64,000 nucleotides of DNA from NCBI GenBank assembly GCA_035651655.1, contig DASRFG010000006.1, positions 1 to 64,000 on the forward strand. Reading direction: 5' to 3'. The first letter of the stretch is position 1. Every line of letters begins with the position of its first letter. This DNA is from Terriglobales bacterium (GTDB lineage Bacteria; Acidobacteriota; Terriglobia; Terriglobales; Acidobacteriaceae). The translations under genes and the position numbers were made by a program. Under the pieces are notes generated by a model. The model saw nothing but the letters and a program-made list of their open reading frames with translations, was not told where the DNA came from and ran no database searches. Of this stretch, positions 18,746 through 25,815 are shown piece after piece.

Positions 18746-19807
18746 CTACACTTTCGAACCTATGGCTACACCGTCAACCAAGTCCAGATATTGCAGCTTC
18801 TTCTCTGCCGACAGGAACGACGCTTCGAAGGAATTGCGGGCAATCTCGCGCAGTTGGTCGTCGCTGAAGCCGAAAGTGTCCTGGGCGAGCTGGTATTCGC
18901 GGTCAAGGGACGTACCAAAGATCGCCGGATCGTCAGAATTCAATGTCACCATGATTCCAGTATCGAAGTAGGTCTTCACCGGATGGTCTGCAGCTCGGCG
19001 GCAGCATCCGGTTCGCAGGTTACTGGAGATACAAATTTCGAGCGGAACCTGGCGTTGCACCAGTTCGGCCATTAACTCGCGGTCGTACCACGCGCTCAAG
19101 CCGTGTCCGATGCGTTCTGCTTTCAGGTTGAGGGCCCCCCAGATAGACTCTGGACCGGCGGTTTCGCCTGCATGCGCCGTGAGTCGCAATCCGTGCTCGC
19201 CCGCATAAGAAAAGACCTCGCGAAAAAGCTCCGGCCCGGCTTTGAGTTCATCGCCGCCAATGCCAAACCCGACAACGCTGGCACAACGCTGCTGCCATTC
19301 AACCGCGGTCCGCGCGACGCACATTGCCCGCTCCGGGCCGAAGTGTCGCGTGGCATCGAAAATCCAAAGCAGCGAGACCCCAAAGTCATGCTCGCCCCGT
19401 TCGCGTCCGCGCTCCATCGCCTCAAAGATGCGATCGAAATCCTTTTTCTGCCACTGACATACTCCCACCGAAACATAGACTTCGGCATGCAACACATTTT
19501 CCGAGCGCAGACGCTGCATCAGACGGTACGTGATCAACTCGTAGTCTTCTGGCGTCCACAGCTGCTCGGTAACAGCCTTAAAGGCCATCAGGAAGCCACT
19601 GAAATCCCGATACTGGTAAATCTGCTCGACGCCCGCCAGCCCACCATTTGAAATTCCATGCCGCTGGCGCAGTTCGAGCAGAGTTGCCGGCTCAACCGCG
19701 CCTTCCAGGTGAAGATGCAACTCTGCTTTGGGTAGTGAGCGTATGAACTCGCTCACCTGAATCGAAGCCTCTGAATTTTCCTCGGAGATGGGTTCGGCCT
19801 GGTTCAT
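18746..19807 (-). CDS. add: Adenosine deaminase (or adenosine-like/aminofutalosine deaminase)
   Basis: A zinc hydrolase of about 353 aa that deaminates adenosine or a related nucleoside; cytosolic. The metal ligands are visible: His31 and His33 in AELHLHLEGA, the zinc His and catalytic Glu in LTAHAGETAG, and the C-terminal Asp pair in LNSDDPAIFGTSL. VPLEICISSNLRTG is also family-typical. The substrate loop does not decide between adenosine and 6-aminodeoxyfutalosine (menaquinone pathway). The start overlaps the upstream permease stop by 4 bases, a sign of translational coupling; the permease could import a purine or amino-acid substrate. ATG at 19805-19807. Confidence 0.9.
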   Translation of the reverse strand: MNQAEPISEENSEASIQVSEFIRSLPKAELHLHLEGAVEPATLLELRQRHGISNGGLAGVEQIYQYRDFSGFLMAFKAVTEQLWTPEDYELITYRLMQRLRSENVLHAEVYVSVGVCQWQKKDFDRIFEAMERGRERGEHDFGVSLLWIFDATRHFGPERAMCVARTAVEWQQRCASVVGFGIGGDELKAGPELFREVFSYAGEHGLRLTAHAGETAGPESIWGALNLKAERIGHGLSAWYDRELMAELVQRQVPLEICISSNLRTGCCRRAADHPVKTYFDTGIMVTLNSDDPAIFGTSLDREYQLAQDTFGFSDDQLREIARNSFEASFLSAEKKLQYLDLVDGVAIGSKV

Positions 19808-21426
19808 CCAGATGGGTGCTCCTTCGATCCTGAGATCCTGTCTCTCGCAAATTCACTGTGCTTGCGACTGTAGAGGCTGTAGACGCTTAAGCCAATTATC
19901 AGCCACCCGAAAAAGCGCAGCCAGGTAAGGATGGGCAGCCCGCTCATCAGCAGAACGCAGAAGGTCACGCTGAGCACAGGAGCGACGATTCCGCCCGGCG
20001 CCCGAAAGCCACGCACACGCTCCGGCTGCTTGTAGCGGAGAATGATCACTCCAATCGAAACCAGCACGAAGGCGAAGAGAGTGCCAATATTGGAGAGGTC
20101 AGCCAGAGTACCGATATCGAGCAGACCTGCCGGAATCCCCACCACGAATCCTGCAATCCAGGTGGCAAGATCCGGCGTGCGGAAGCGGGGATGCACCCGA
20201 CTAAACAGTTTGGGCAATAACCCATCCCGCGACATGGCGAACCACACCCGTGCCTGCCCCAACTGAAATACCAGCAGGGACGAGATCATGCCCAGCATGG
20301 CGCCAAAAAGTACGCCGAGTCGGATCCAGGGCAAACCATGAGAGCCGGTCGCCAGGGTGAGCTTCTTTAGCGAGTTCACCACCGGCGCGGCGTCGTCAAT
20401 CAAGGTTTGCCAGGGAACGATTCCGGTGAGCACAACCGCCACTGCGATGTACAACACGGTGCAGACCACAAGGGTAGCGATGATGCCAATCGGCAAATCG
20501 CGTTGCGGATTGCGGGCCTCTTCGGCGGCGGTAGAAACCGAGTCAAATCCGATGTAAGTAAAGAAAATAATGGATCCACCGGTGAGGATTCCTGACCAAC
20601 CCATGGGCGCGAAAGGGTGCCAATTCTGCGGGCGCACAAAGTACGAACCGGCCATCACGAATAACAGAATGGCCGCGATCTTTAGCAGGACCATCACATT
20701 ATTCGCCCTGGCGGATTCGCGGATGCCGCGTACCAGCACCACCGTGAGCACCATCACAATCAGGAACGCCGGAAAGTTGAAGCCGAAGTGCCACCCCGGG
20801 ACATAGAGCATGTTCCCGTTCAGATCGCTCAGGCCGCTAGGCAGATACGAGGGAGATATCCAGCGCAAGGGTGGGTGCAAGCCGAACCAATCGAGCAGGT
20901 CCACCAGGTGGGCGGCGAAGCCCACGCTTACCGCCATGTTGCTGACCGCGTATTCGAGAATCAGGTCCCAGCCGATGATCCACGCGATCAGCTCGCCCAT
21001 GGTCGCGTACGTATAAGTGTAGGCACTGCCGGCGATAGGAATCATCGAGGCCAGCTCGGCATAGCACAGTGCCGTGAAGGCGCACACTGTCGCCACCAGC
21101 AGCAGTGAGAATGCCAGCGCCGGCCCAGCCCCCGGGCGGCCAGTCGTGGCCGTGTGTCTCACCAGGTAATCAAGCAGGGGAGCGTTCAGGATGGAAGAGG
21201 TATTGAACTTCTGGCCGGCAATTGCCGTCCCGATGACGGTGAAGATGCCCGACCCGATCACCGCGCCAATGCCAAGCGCGGTCAGAGAAACCGGACCGAG
21301 CGTTTTCTTGAGCCTTCGCTCCGGCTCTTCGCAGTCGGCAATTAGCTTATCAATAGACTTCTTGCAGAAGAGCTGGCTGCCGCGTTGCTGTGGCGGTTCT
21401 CGGGTAACTGTTGTTCTTTCTGCCAC
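19804..21426 (-). CDS. APC-family amino acid permease (cationic amino acid transporter type)
   Basis: A 540-residue inner-membrane transporter with about 12-14 hydrophobic segments. The first membrane helix carries GIGAVIGSGIFTVIGTA, the APC-family signature, and the TM6 region reads IIFFTYIGFDSVSTAAEEARNPQRDLP, as in the CAT/YfnA-type permeases. A cytosolic N-terminal arm of about 40 charged residues precedes TM1, and a short charged tail follows the last helix. A long loop (about residues 74-100 and 170-215) on the outside is larger than usual. First gene of the permease-deaminase-racemase-amidohydrolase set. Substrate could be a cationic or broad amino acid; not determinable here. Confidence 0.92.
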   Translation of the reverse strand: MAERTTVTREPPQQRGSQLFCKKSIDKLIADCEEPERRLKKTLGPVSLTALGIGAVIGSGIFTVIGTAIAGQKFNTSSILNAPLLDYLVRHTATTGRPGAGPALAFSLLLVATVCAFTALCYAELASMIPIAGSAYTYTYATMGELIAWIIGWDLILEYAVSNMAVSVGFAAHLVDLLDWFGLHPPLRWISPSYLPSGLSDLNGNMLYVPGWHFGFNFPAFLIVMVLTVVLVRGIRESARANNVMVLLKIAAILLFVMAGSYFVRPQNWHPFAPMGWSGILTGGSIIFFTYIGFDSVSTAAEEARNPQRDLPIGIIATLVVCTVLYIAVAVVLTGIVPWQTLIDDAAPVVNSLKKLTLATGSHGLPWIRLGVLFGAMLGMISSLLVFQLGQARVWFAMSRDGLLPKLFSRVHPRFRTPDLATWIAGFVVGIPAGLLDIGTLADLSNIGTLFAFVLVSIGVIILRYKQPERVRGFRAPGGIVAPVLSVTFCVLLMSGLPILTWLRFFGWLIIGLSVYSLYSRKHSEFARDRISGSKEHPSG

Positions 21427-21496
21427 TTTACTCCTGAGGTCGTAGCTCCTGGGTCTGGATATTTTCTAAGCGAGTTTGCGCACAGCTTCGCTGGCC

Positions 21497-21661
21497 TTAT
21501 GCGCGCTTGGCCTGCCCACGAGCGAGCTTCCTCACTTTTTGTTTCTTGGAGCCGCGTGGGTAGTCGCGCTTCTTTTGTGGATTCGTCTGCGCCCGCTTTT
21601 TGCGTGCAGCACGTTTGGATTTCTTACGCTCTTCCTTGCTCAGCTTCTTCGTGTTTGCCAT
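21497..21661 (-). CDS. 54-residue, extremely basic small protein
   Basis: An unannotated-type short gene between uvrD (stop 21699) and the permease. ATG at 21659-21661, TAA at 21497-21499. The protein opens MANTKKLSKEERKKSKRAAR and remains Lys/Arg-rich throughout, with no acidic patch except one KEE, no hydrophobic core and one Tyr. About 40 percent of its residues are Lys or Arg. Such composition fits an RNA- or ribosome-associated protein, comparable in kind (not in sequence) to Thx or bL36-like small ribosomal proteins. It is 37 bases downstream of uvrD on the same strand, so co-transcription is possible. GGAG lies about 19 bases before the ATG, too far for an ideal site. Confidence 0.65.
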   Translation of the reverse strand: MANTKKLSKEERKKSKRAARKKRAQTNPQKKRDYPRGSKKQKVRKLARGQAKRA

Positions 21662-21698
21662 GAGTACGTGTCGTCTGCTCCAATCAATTGTGAAACCG

Positions 21699-24356
21699 CT
21701 AAAGGCTTTCTAGTTGCGCGTATTTCTCCACCAGCTTCTTCAGGCCGAAGCGAGGGAATTGTACCGTAATCTTCGATTCTTCACCTTCTCCCTCGCGCTG
21801 GTAGACCGTTCCCTCGCCATATTTGGGATGCCGGACTTTTTGCCCCGGCCTGAATCCGCGCCGGCCCGAGGGTGCCTCCACTTTCAGCTTGGGACGAGAG
21901 AACTTCTTCCCTCGTGAGGCAAAGAACTCAGCGATATTGTCAATCGAGTTGTAGGCCGGCCCGGAATATGTGCGCTTAGGCTTGGTTGAGCCGCCGCTCC
22001 ATGCCGCGCTCTGATCTTCGTCCTCGTATGCATAATGCCCGGATTCTCCTGCTCCGGAAATATGTGGCGCGGAAACTCTTGTCCGCGAATAGTCAGCCCC
22101 GGAATACGAACGGCCACGTGGTGATCCCAGGTCCTCCAGCAACTGCGGCGGAATCTCTTCCAAAAAACGGGAAGCGATCGTCGCTTCGGGCAAGTCGGTC
22201 CCATAACGACGTCGATAACGCGCACGAGTGACGATGAGGGTATTCATGGCCCGGGTCATGCCGACGTAGCAGAGGCGGCGCTCTTCCTCAATGTCGTCGG
22301 GCATCAACAAAGTTCGGGAGTGGGGGAACAAGCCTTCTTCCAGTCCCGCGAGAAACACCAGAGGAAATTCCAGCCCCTTGGCGGCGTGCAGGGTCATGAG
22401 GGTAATCTGCGCGCTGGCATCGTATTGGTCGGCGTCGCTGACCAGGGCAGCGTGGTCGAGAAATTGGTCAAGCGTCTCGCCGCGATCGCGCGAGTCCATC
22501 GCCGCATTGACCAACTCGCGCAGGTTCTCGATGCGAGAAAAGGCTTCGGGCGTGTCCTCTTCTTCGAGGCGCTTGATGTACCCAGTGCGATCTATCAGGA
22601 ACTTCAGGATGTCTGCGGTGTTGGCGTTTCTAGCGCCGGCATCGGTAGCGCCGGCATCCTGCCGGCTTTCATCCGTCAGAGTTCCTTCTGTGGAGTCGTC
22701 TTCCAGATCGCCTGCAGACTCGGCCGCCGTGACGGCGGCGCTCCTGTCCCCAAAATCAAACGAGATATCAAGCTCGGTCTGCTCAGGAATATCGCCGTCG
22801 CCGTTCTGCTCAATGGCGCCGGCATCCAGTTCGTCCTCAGCCACCCGCAGCCGGGGCTCAGGCCGCGCTGTTTCGGCAAGGCGTGCCGCATAGCTGCCGG
22901 CGAGCATGGCGCGAGCATCGTCAATCAGCTCTTTAAAGCCGCGAAGTGCCGCTAAGGCTCGCGGGGGAAGCAGCTGGCCTTCAACCGCGTGGCCGATCAC
23001 GCCCCATAAGGACAGGCCGGTCTCCAGCGCCAGCCTCTCCAGCGTCTCGACAGTATTTTTGCCAATTCCGCGGGCCGGTGTGTTCAGCACGCGCATCAGG
23101 GAAATCGAATCGTCAGGGTTGTGAATCACTTTGAGATACGAGATCAGATCCTTGATCTCTGCCCGATCGTAGAACGAGAATCCGCCGACCACGTGGTACT
23201 TGAGTTGGTACCGGCGCATTGCCTCTTCAAACAAACGCGACTGCGAATTGGTGCGGTAGAGCACCGCCGCCCGCGCATCATCGCCTCGCTCTGTAGCTTC
23301 TCGTAGATAGCGAGAGATGTAGTCGGCGGCAAAGAGCGCCTCGTTTTCTCCGTCTGGAGCCTCGTAATAGCCGATTTTGGCGCCGCCCTGGCGCTCGGTC
23401 CAAAGATTCTTGCCCTTGCGCTTCACATTGTTGGCCACCACCGACGAAGCCGCTTGCAGGATATTCTGGGTGGAACGATAGTTCTGCTCCAGACGGATGA
23501 TTTTGGCCTCGGGAAAATCCTGCTCAAATTCGAGGATGTTGCGAATGTCGGCGCCCCGCCATGAGTAGATGGACTGGTCTTCGTCGCCCACAGCGCAGAC
23601 GTTGTGCTGAGTACCGGCCAGCAACCGCATGAGCTCGTACTGCGGCCGGTTGGTGTCCTGGTACTCGTCAACCAAAAGATATTCGAAGCGGCGGTTGTAG
23701 CGCTCGCGAACCTCGGCTGAACCCTTCAGCAGCCGAACCGTCTCAAGCAGCAGGTCGTCAAAGTCGAGAGCGTTAGCTTTGCGCAATTCTTTGCGATAAA
23801 TCTCGTAAATGTGGGCGACGCGCTCCGTCTTGGGGTCGGCCGATTGCAGATAAATCTCCTGGGGATCGAGCATGTGGTTCTTCGCCCAGGAAATTCGTCC
23901 CAGCACCGCGCTCGGTGTGAGCTGTTTGTCGTCCAGGCCGAGCCGCTTCATGGCGGCCTTGACTACCTGTTGCTGGTCGCTCTCGTCGTAAATGACAAAG
24001 TCCTTTCGGAAACCAACAGCCGGTTCCCCGCTCGCCGGAACGATATTGAGTGCCTCAATGTCTCGCCGGAGTACCCGAACACAAAATGAATGGAAGGTGG
24101 AGATCGTAGGTTTGGTAACACCGTGGCCGCCCACCAGCTTGGCGACCCGCTCACCCATCTCCGCGGCGGCTTTATTGGTAAAGGTGACCGCCAGGACGGA
24201 CTCTGGCCGCACGCCACGGTCTTCGATCAGGTGAGCAATGCGATAGGTAATGACACGTGTCTTACCGCTGCCCGCGCCTGCCAGGATGAGCAGGGGCCCT
24301 TGCGTCGATTCAACAGCTTCGCGCTGCTGAGGATTGAGATTGTCGAGTAACGGCAC
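21699..24356 (-). CDS. uvrD: ATP-dependent DNA helicase of the UvrD/PcrA family, with an acidic linker insertion
   Basis: A 3'-5' SF1A helicase for excision and mismatch repair and replication restart. The GTG start gives MPLLDNLNPQQREAVES, which includes the Q-motif. Motif I AGAGSGKT is at 26-33, motif II is LLVDEYQDTN, and motifs III to VI follow (GDEDQSIYSWRGAD; LEQNYRST; TLHAAKGLEFPLVF; YVGMTRAMNTL). The C-terminus carries the VXHPKYGEGTV Tudor-like module typical of PcrA/UvrD. Odd: residues about 495-580, inside subdomain 2B before LKFLIDRTGYI, hold an acidic, low-complexity insertion of about 85 residues that ordinary PcrA lacks, encoded by palindromic repeat-like DNA. GTG start is 3 bases after the DUF971 stop, indicating one transcript. 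Confidence 0.95.
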   Translation of the reverse strand: MPLLDNLNPQQREAVESTQGPLLILAGAGSGKTRVITYRIAHLIEDRGVRPESVLAVTFTNKAAAEMGERVAKLVGGHGVTKPTISTFHSFCVRVLRRDIEALNIVPASGEPAVGFRKDFVIYDESDQQQVVKAAMKRLGLDDKQLTPSAVLGRISWAKNHMLDPQEIYLQSADPKTERVAHIYEIYRKELRKANALDFDDLLLETVRLLKGSAEVRERYNRRFEYLLVDEYQDTNRPQYELMRLLAGTQHNVCAVGDEDQSIYSWRGADIRNILEFEQDFPEAKIIRLEQNYRSTQNILQAASSVVANNVKRKGKNLWTERQGGAKIGYYEAPDGENEALFAADYISRYLREATERGDDARAAVLYRTNSQSRLFEEAMRRYQLKYHVVGGFSFYDRAEIKDLISYLKVIHNPDDSISLMRVLNTPARGIGKNTVETLERLALETGLSLWGVIGHAVEGQLLPPRALAALRGFKELIDDARAMLAGSYAARLAETARPEPRLRVAEDELDAGAIEQNGDGDIPEQTELDISFDFGDRSAAVTAAESAGDLEDDSTEGTLTDESRQDAGATDAGARNANTADILKFLIDRTGYIKRLEEEDTPEAFSRIENLRELVNAAMDSRDRGETLDQFLDHAALVSDADQYDASAQITLMTLHAAKGLEFPLVFLAGLEEGLFPHSRTLLMPDDIEEERRLCYVGMTRAMNTLIVTRARYRRRYGTDLPEATIASRFLEEIPPQLLEDLGSPRGRSYSGADYSRTRVSAPHISGAGESGHYAYEDEDQSAAWSGGSTKPKRTYSGPAYNSIDNIAEFFASRGKKFSRPKLKVEAPSGRRGFRPGQKVRHPKYGEGTVYQREGEGEESKITVQFPRFGLKKLVEKYAQLESL
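22631..22743. repeat. Repeat-like palindromic DNA inside uvrD
   Basis: TAGCGCCGGCATC occurs at 22631-22643 and again at 22646-22658, followed by CCTGCCGGC, giving overlapping palindromes around GCCGGC; a further GGCGCCGGCATCC is at 22814. At about 22722 GCCGCC-GTGA-GGCGGC-type symmetry follows. These are the kind of short palindromes normally scattered between genes in such genomes, here in frame and encoding the acidic insertion of the helicase. Confidence 0.6.
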
Positions 24357-24359
24357 TAC

Positions 24360-24767
24360 CTAAACCTTCGATGGGAATTTCGTCGAACCAGCAACTGCCG
24401 GCGAGGCGTTCACGTTGCATTGCTCACAGGGGCAGACTTCGCGCAAGAAAGTCCATGAATAGATGCCCAAATCATGGCCGTCATTCCATTGGAATTTAAT
24501 CGCGTACTTGCCAACCGGCTGAGCGTGATTGGGCTTTGCCGTCGCTTTGAACATGGGCAGCGCACCGGGAGTTTCTTGGGGCGGCTCACCCGGTTTCCGG
24601 CCACTCTTCAGGCGCTCGTCATCGCATAAGGCGCAGGGGCAGGCATCCCGCAAGTAGGCAAACGTGTAACTGCTCCGATGGCCGTCTTTCCACTCGATTT
24701 CTACGCCAGTGCCGGTGGTAATGTTCACCTTGACTGACTGAGGATCGGTTTTGAGACTGACCGACAT
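24360..24767 (-). CDS. DUF971 domain protein (gamma-butyrobetaine hydroxylase N-terminal-like)
   Basis: A 135-residue soluble protein of the DUF971 family, related to the zinc-binding N-terminal domain of gamma-butyrobetaine hydroxylase. Two cysteine clusters are visible: LRDACPCALCDDE at about residues 38-50 and LREVCPCEQCNVN near 110-122, each a C-x-C-x2-C arrangement. GKYAIKFQWNDGHDLGIYSW between them is the family's best-conserved stretch. Stand-alone DUF971 proteins sit near iron-sulfur or Mrp/ApbC genes in other bacteria, which suggests a role in metal or cluster handling, but this is not shown here. It is the upstream partner of uvrD and diverges from rpmB. Confidence 0.85.
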   Translation of the reverse strand: MSVSLKTDPQSVKVNITTGTGVEIEWKDGHRSSYTFAYLRDACPCALCDDERLKSGRKPGEPPQETPGALPMFKATAKPNHAQPVGKYAIKFQWNDGHDLGIYSWTFLREVCPCEQCNVNASPAVAGSTKFPSKV

Positions 24768-24874
24768 ATATTCAGTATCGCATAGGGGCAGTGGCGCAAA
24801 ACCGCTCTCATCCGCTAAAATCTAGATTCTGCCGACAGTTTCGGAACTTTTCTAAGCGACCAGCGGGAGCGAAA

Positions 24875-25063
24875 ATGGCACAAGTTTGTGATATCTGCGG
24901 CAAGTCGCCGCAGTTCGGGAACAAGATCAGTCACGCCCATAACGTGAGCAGGCGACGGTGGAATGTGAACCTGCGGCCGGTGCGGGCGCGAGTGAAGGGC
25001 GCCACCAAGAAGCTGCGCGTCTGCACCTCCTGCCTGCGCAGCGGCAAAGTTGTCAAGGCGTAG
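24875..25063 (+). CDS. rpmB: 50S ribosomal protein L28 (bL28), zinc-binding form
   Basis: A 62-residue ribosomal protein. The start MAQVCDICGKSPQFGNKISH, the central RRRWNVNLRPVR and the C-terminal LRVCTSCLRSGKVVK are unmistakable. Two CxxC pairs (CDIC and CTSC) make this the zinc-ribbon (C+) version. A longer frame begins at 24791, but the ATG at 24875, preceded by GGGAG at 24865-24869, is the true start. A hairpin plus T-run follows the stop by about 35 bases. It is transcribed alone, divergent from the DUF971-uvrD pair. Confidence 0.97.
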   Translation: MAQVCDICGKSPQFGNKISHAHNVSRRRWNVNLRPVRARVKGATKKLRVCTSCLRSGKVVKA

Positions 25064-25096
25064 GAATCCTGGGTGGTGACAAGGTTTGAAAATAAA

Positions 25097-25132
25097 AGAG
25101 GCCGGGATTAAAACCCCGCCCCTTTGTTTTTC
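25097..25132 (+). terminator. Intrinsic terminator after rpmB
   Basis: A GC-rich imperfect hairpin (GAGGCCGGG, short A-rich loop, CCCCGCCCC) is followed by TTTGTTTTT. One mismatch interrupts the stem. Placement 33 bases after the rpmB stop supports it. Confidence 0.6.
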
Positions 25133-25186
25133 CTGCCATGCTTAGCCACGTGTAAGTTTAGACCTTGACACGGTTAGCGCAGCATA

Positions 25187-25543
25187 TCATTTCAGCCCCA
25201 GAGCCACCTTCACATTGCTGTCTATTTCGTCAAGTCTCGCACTCAAAAGAGTGCCGAGTGGTGGATATACAACGCATCTTTTTTCGACCGTCGTTGGTTG
25301 GTCGCACTTGACCCATGAATCATAGTCAAGGCCAGCTTCGCCACGGTTCAGCTTCGGGCGCAATGAGAACTGCTTGTGTTCAACTTTTGAGATTGGGATT
25401 ACACACACATCCTGCGAGAATTTATTTAATGCGTCCGAAGAAAAGATTATTGCGGGGCGCTCTTTATCAATGTCCACTAGGCAGACTTCACCCCGGCGAG
25501 GGAACCAACCCAAAGGTGTAGCAGCCCTCGCCCAAGCACTCAT
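25187..25543 (-). CDS. MazF/PemK-type endoribonuclease toxin
   Basis: A 118-residue toxin of the MazF/PemK/CcdB fold, an mRNA interferase. The segment FPRRGEVCLVDIDKERPAIIFS is the family's first strand pair with the conserved Arg-Gly-Glu and the Arg-Pro before the second strand; VCVIPIS and WVKCDQPTTVEKR are the later conserved strands, and SARLDEIDSNVKVALGL the C-terminal helix. The N-terminus has about 14 extra residues before PRRGE; a start slightly downstream cannot be excluded. ATG at 25541-25543 overlaps the antitoxin TAA by one base (TAATG), so the two are translationally coupled in the antitoxin-first order. Confidence 0.88.
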   Translation of the reverse strand: MSAWARAATPLGWFPRRGEVCLVDIDKERPAIIFSSDALNKFSQDVCVIPISKVEHKQFSLRPKLNRGEAGLDYDSWVKCDQPTTVEKRCVVYPPLGTLLSARLDEIDSNVKVALGLK

Positions 25544-25815
25544 TATCTATCCCAACTCTTCAGTGCAGCACACTGGAAAGCAATGGTTTCCTCCCGATCA
25601 TCAATAGAGCCGTAGAATTGCTCAGCCTCTTTTTCTAGCTGAATAATGCGCTCAGCTTCCAGCGCGGACCGCAGCAACTGATTGACTCTCTCGCTGGTAG
25701 ACTCGGCTCCCTTTGTTTCTTCGATGGCTTGAATTACCTCTTTCTCAAGAGAGAGAGAGCGCGACTCCCTTGCTGATCTGGACGGTCGATTTGGAAGCTT
25801 CCAAGCTGTGGCCAT
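25543..25815 (-). CDS. Antitoxin of the MazF-type pair (ribbon-helix-helix-like)
   Basis: A 90-residue protein upstream of and coupled to the toxin. The stretch SRSLSLEKEVIQAIEETKGA followed by ERVNQLLRSALEAE fits a ribbon-helix-helix DNA-binding domain (about residues 16-56), and the acidic C-terminal tail (QLEKEAEQFYGSIDDREET) is the usual toxin-binding part. It should bind the toxin and repress its own promoter. A strong promoter and a pair of CATTAC repeats lie directly upstream. The local base composition of the region behind it is AT-richer than the surroundings, consistent with a mobile toxin-antitoxin module. Confidence 0.8.
   Translation of the reverse strand: MATAWKLPNRPSRSARESRSLSLEKEVIQAIEETKGAESTSERVNQLLRSALEAERIIQLEKEAEQFYGSIDDREETIAFQCAALKSWDR

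Follow-up and report, generated by a model that had tools for sequence, protein, structure and literature searches.

Among the systems closest to the protein described here, bTHX (Thx; found in Thermus and others) is a short, Lys/Arg-rich extra protein of the 30S subunit, and bS21 is of similar length to our protein and has a basic C-terminal part. The Borrelia ribosome has two such proteins, bS22 (61% Lys+Arg) and bL38, that stayed unannotated until they were seen by cryo-EM (PMC10618245). bS22, a protein of the mS38/COX24_C type occurring in Actinobacteria, Bacteroidetes and Borrelia, resembles ours in being tiny, very basic and mostly one helix, as well as lineage-restricted and easily overlooked in annotation (PMC10618245). 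It differs in length, since the 93-bp coordinates given there correspond to ~30 residues, compared to 50-56 residues forming a predicted helix and a long tail in our case. Likewise, mycobacterial bL37 and the bL38 found in Flavobacterium/Borrelia are comparable as small extra 50S proteins of limited lineages that were recognised from structures (PMC10618245). A eukaryotic parallel is offered by the Lso2-type proteins, which are short, ribosome-bound and late-recognised according to an excerpt of PMC6135351; they differ from our protein in being eukaryotic, and a sequence relation was compared by PDB search alone.

The window, i.e., the whole 64,000-nucleotide stretch of acidobacterial DNA analysed here, carries on its minus strand a gene for a 54-residue basic protein (21497-21661), which was studied through its ORF, its translation, its homologues, pN/pS and AlphaFold2. 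A preliminary description made from the letters of the window had given these coordinates and an ATG-to-TAA frame without naming the strand; translation bears it out and places the complete frame of 54 codons on the minus strand. The protein contains 24 Lys/Arg (44%; about 40 percent had been estimated) and 3 Asp/Glu residues, with a net charge of +21. Upstream lies the uvrD/pcrA helicase gene (21699-24356, minus strand), and the 37 bases that had been reported between the two genes were indeed found; this spacer (21662-21698, minus strand) holds only a weak purine-rich stretch upstream of the small gene. The downstream neighbour, 70 bp away, is an APC-type amino acid transporter gene (19804-21426, minus strand), followed by add (adenosine deaminase-like; 18746-19807, minus strand). 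The gap between uvrD and the transporter gene, previously described as an otherwise empty 270 bases, measures 272 bases and contains the small gene alone on the coding strand. No promoter-like site was detected in 21300-22000 and no Rfam match in 20500-25500. Farther upstream, bL28 (rpmB; named by sequence) is located at 24878-25063 on the plus strand, divergent from the uvrD cluster, and is also near in many relatives; its predicted ORF, from 24791, probably extends too far at the 5' end. Next to it, the minus-strand frames 25187-25543 and 25543-25815 are presumably a MazF/PemK-type toxin and a small partner directly upstream, likely a toxin-antitoxin pair.

In order to examine conservation, 185 small basic genes were gathered from relatives' loci, 148 of them distinct in DNA. 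Genes without a stop inside the stretch or scoring <25 bits were excluded, and the set was collected by profile and is hence biased toward conserved copies. The frame is uninterrupted in all 148 distinct homologues, at 50-56 codons (a stop inside the stretch being required for inclusion), and begins with ATG in 142, GTG in four and TTG in two. SD-like motifs occur within 22 nt upstream in 99/148 relatives vs 25/148 in the -60..-38 control. Across the 148 proteins Lys/Arg content ranges from 34 to 49% (mean 42.5%) and net charge from +14 to +22, and Cys, Trp and Phe are absent from every one of them. There is no hydrophobic core, as noted in the preliminary description. T4, R12, K13, K16, R17, R20, R36 and G37 are identical in 148/148, while K40 and G49 are retained in 146 and K21 and R32 in 145. 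At the six invariant basic positions no swap between Lys and Arg was seen in the 148 copies, across families; the two residues are thus not interchangeable there, which favours defined contacts, of the kind made with rRNA, over bulk charge.

Purifying selection, proposed earlier as a check, was found: pN/pS was 0.43 (95% interval 0.37-0.50; 64 independent pairs), and the median dN/dS was 0.31 for the 2036 pairs whose dS lay in the range 0.1-1, seven of which reached dN/dS values >=1. A lack of homologues in related genomes and a disrupted frame in close relatives had been named beforehand as observations that would speak against the gene; both were looked for and neither was encountered. From these comparisons of sequence we conclude that the minus-strand frame at 21497-21661 is a real protein gene under purifying selection. 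As regards expression, CGC/CGT make up 122/157 (78%) of the Arg codons of the small gene compared to 945/1514 (62%) in uvrD (p = 1e-4), a usage close to that of bL28 (54/76, 71%; p = 0.33 against the small gene). This bias hints at high expression, and it is taken as a hint only because no difference was seen between bL28 and uvrD either (p = 0.14).

The gene is widespread among relatives of the source genome. In a search of 100 relatives it was recovered from 58/60 genomes of the same family (E <= 2.7e-5), the two without a match being 76% and 70% complete. A class-wide search with a profile of 32 members (E <= 0.001) matched 253 of 399 genomes, with one match per genome except for two each in G534 and G240; conservation in homologues, another check that had been called for, was thus found. 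The matches include 110 genomes of the own family, and no genome of that family appears among the 20 of 146 misses listed; since these begin with the next family, there is presumably no miss in the own family. G101 (f8, 88% complete) is one of the listed misses. Family labels f1-f11 are arbitrary numbers. Carriers within the class were found in f1, f3, f5, f6, f8 and f11, whereas none was seen among the listed members of f2, f4, f7, f9 and f10; whole families thus do without it, so it is dispensable over evolution. In a sample of 199 genomes of the phylum, the 21 matches all belong to the same class, and the other 178 genomes gave nothing better than E 0.015, covering part of the model. Among the best 80 of 178 matches, all named carriers are Acidobacteriota and include Terracidiphilus gabretensis (strain S55; locus L183), Edaphobacter, Granulicella, Silvibacterium and Candidatus Sulfotelmatobacter. 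No relative was found in phages and plasmids by tblastn or in viral contigs by a scan. In a UvrD tree of 54 rows, which left out the 4/58 loci without UvrD (L086, L087, L089, and L102), the presence of the small gene requires three changes. These may represent a single origin followed by two losses, or repeated gains. Judging from its phyletic pattern, the gene is old, single copy and vertically inherited, and it has been gained or lost few times.

Synteny with uvrD had also been suggested as a check and was found. The order uvrD, small gene, transporter gene and add on one strand is kept in 20/20 loci of the same family, and in other families uvrD lies upstream in 16/20 loci and the transporter gene lies downstream, on the same strand, in 16/20. 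However, f8 and f3 depart from this association with uvrD. At L086, L087 and L102, three loci of f8, the small gene stands before add without an adjoining uvrD and is preceded by a gene pair which we take to be TldD/PmbA-like. In L102 the transporter is reduced to short fragments, although this locus is counted among the 16/20, and the small gene is intact. It is also intact in L085, L086 and L087, where no transporter gene lies downstream, and in the f3 locus L089, where the transporter gene is on the opposite strand and uvrD synteny is lost. Within the own family, 3.3 kb including an opposite-strand gene separate uvrD from the small gene in L045, the small gene still adjoining the transporter gene; the intervening 676-residue frame is presumably hydrolase-like. 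An apparent 1134-bp gap after uvrD in L048 (genome G001) arises because the uvrD frame is split into two pieces of 543 and 284 residues, the second ending 87 bp before the small gene; the split may be an assembly error or a broken gene.

The reverse situation was observed as well, with a bare uvrD-transporter junction in 3/3 f7, 3/3 f10 and 1/3 f9 loci (L128, L130, L131, and L137-L140), and no remnant basic frame resembling the small gene was seen in these gaps. Given junctions that lack the small gene and a small gene that persists without its neighbours, the uvrD-transporter order is inherited on its own. Synteny consequently shows no link to uvrD, and we regard it as no proof of joint function, the small gene outliving both neighbours. 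A ribosomal-protein operon surrounds the gene in none of the loci examined.

The preliminary description did not recognise the family, and our searches agree: no family for the protein was found in Pfam, NCBIfam or PHROGs, no relative in Rfam, and no chain in the PDB sequences at E <= 10 in a profile search. Pfam aRib (E 0.0025) and DUF6381 (E 0.0057), each matched by 2/32 members, were rejected as compositional because the scores are scattered and low. Literature searches found no description of this family of small basic proteins. It is thus undescribed in the libraries and literature searched, and ordinary in kind. With regard to the known small ribosomal proteins, the bS22/COX24_C model PF08213 matched none of the 32 members and 0/30 genomes, the Corynebacterium control being found. 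No sequence match to bL37 or bL38 was obtained by the PDB profile search (E <= 10) or at NCBIfam cut-offs; chains of both are, we assume, contained in the PDB sequence set searched. bTHX is alike in kind, being short and Lys/Arg-rich, but the small protein does not match PF17070, a model of 27 positions that matched 0/30 genomes including the source genome, with the Thermus control found. A separate bS21 gene is present in 30/30 genomes, and the small protein, unlike bS21, gives no PF01165 match. The idea that the small gene is a stand-in for bTHX or bS21 was discarded, as neither tracks its presence in 30 genomes with and without the gene; genes of the bS22 type are missing from all 30. The protein may work like these small ribosomal proteins, yet by sequence it belongs to none of them.

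AlphaFold2, run with 30 relatives, predicted one helix (residues 9-26) followed by an extended tail, with a mean pLDDT of 82 and a pTM of 0.42. Conservation is highest in the helix and the middle of the protein and not at the C-terminus alone. A placement of the invariant basic residues on one helix face was considered and rejected (entropy moment p = 0.53; p = 0.37 for residues 9-22). Lacking a hydrophobic core, such a protein would presumably fold on a negatively charged partner.

In addition, the general traits of ribosomal proteins are all present: the protein is small, very basic, single copy, under purifying selection and encoded by a core gene of its lineage. The explanation we prefer, with confidence evenly balanced, is a core, single-copy binder of structured RNA, most likely a ribosomal or rRNA-associated protein specific to part of the class. 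The Borrelia proteins missed by annotation serve as a precedent; on the other side weigh the families that do without the gene, its position outside ribosomal-protein operons, the want of any PDB match and the helix without a significantly conserved face. The preliminary description had considered the composition typical of RNA- or ribosome-bound small proteins; conservation, selection and the frequent proximity to uvrD were confirmed, and its reading is supported to the extent that sequence allows and is the best fit to them, although we infer both RNA as the ligand and the ribosome as the site, and the helix and tail are predicted. Under the preferred explanation, the short basic helix (~residues 9-26, with R12, K13, K16, R17, and R20) would dock on rRNA via specific contacts of its Arg and Lys residues, and the extended tail, which carries the invariant R36-G37 and ends in a K/R-rich C-terminus, would thread between RNA helices, as do the small proteins bS22, bL37 and bTHX. 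A narrower and more tentative version is that of a new b-type ribosomal protein with its own rRNA site, for which an ancestral gain at the uvrD-transporter junction, or several losses accompanied by changes of the site, could be envisaged. In a search for rRNA indels that follow presence and absence of the small gene, full-length 16S genes were recovered in no more than two carriers (G077 and G092) and five non-carriers. The half-length 16S genes of G000 and G027 (L229 and L230) are an assembly effect, namely truncation at contig ends.

Two other functions, each unlikely, are the main rivals. The basic composition would suit DNA as well as RNA, and the protein could be DNA-binding or nucleoid-associated, perhaps one that assists UvrD/PcrA in repair or in transcription-coupled work and is translated from the uvrD message. 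The position directly downstream of uvrD in 20/20 own-family loci and 16/20 others points in this direction, and in five f6 loci (L085, L092, L095, L096, and L103) the start of the small gene shares 4 bases with the uvrD stop, suggesting translational coupling. However, this proposal, to which we give a low probability, is at odds with the persistence of the gene away from uvrD in f8 and f3 and with the uvrD-transporter pairs devoid of the gene in f7, f10 and a single f9 genome. A similarly low probability is given to an RNA binder that is not ribosomal, such as an RNA chaperone, an rRNA-processing or assembly factor, or a stress or hibernation factor bound at times. Composition and conservation fit it equally, and the lack of the gene in several related families points to an auxiliary, not a structural, part, whereas presence in all near-complete genomes of the own family suggests a constant need.

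The remaining explanations are far less probable. Runs of positive residues slow ribosomes, and the small gene precedes the transporter gene, so that a leader or arrest peptide regulating the latter was considered. Localisation genes are reported to be preceded by arrest peptides whose ends are RAPP-like (PMC12992588). Strings resembling GPGAPP close the sequence of some f5 members. Nevertheless, such a role is very improbable, because an intact small gene is kept where the transporter gene is missing (L085-L087), flipped (L089) or fragmentary (L102); furthermore, the gap to the transporter gene varies from 7 to 515 bp, and conservation does not peak solely at the C-terminus. Even less credit is given to a secreted antimicrobial peptide or bacteriocin. 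It derives from the only NCBIfam near-match, the putative bacteriocin family NF047792 (CCPGW), which was matched by 2/32 members (best E 0.012), but the score of the window's own protein, 13.5 bits (E 0.054), is far under the cut-off of 80 bits, and the protein combines no hydrophobic signal with vertical single-copy inheritance and no match in plasmids or phages. Finally, the plus strand of 21497-21661 is likewise open in the window and encodes a hydrophobic frame, which could make the small gene a chance Lys/Arg-rich frame or the antisense of a plus-strand gene. An open plus-strand frame is what the complement of a Lys/Arg-rich gene would show, and a stop interrupts this frame inside the interval in 7/17 minus-strand relatives; the minus frame is thus the gene and the sole conserved one. 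Together with these stops, the matches in 253/399 class genomes, the pN/pS below 1 and the eight invariant residues refute a chance or antisense origin, whose probability we consider negligible.

No ribosome structure from the phylum Acidobacteriota, whose members rank among the most common bacteria of soil, was seen in the 20 of 1,014 papers listed by a keyword search. A family that has a named carrier and is missing from Pfam, NCBIfam, PHROGs and the PDB would allow a direct test for missing small ribosomal proteins. At the same time, the natural empty sites, at which uvrD is followed by the transporter gene and the small gene is lacking, would provide a clean case for the gain and loss of a tiny core gene.
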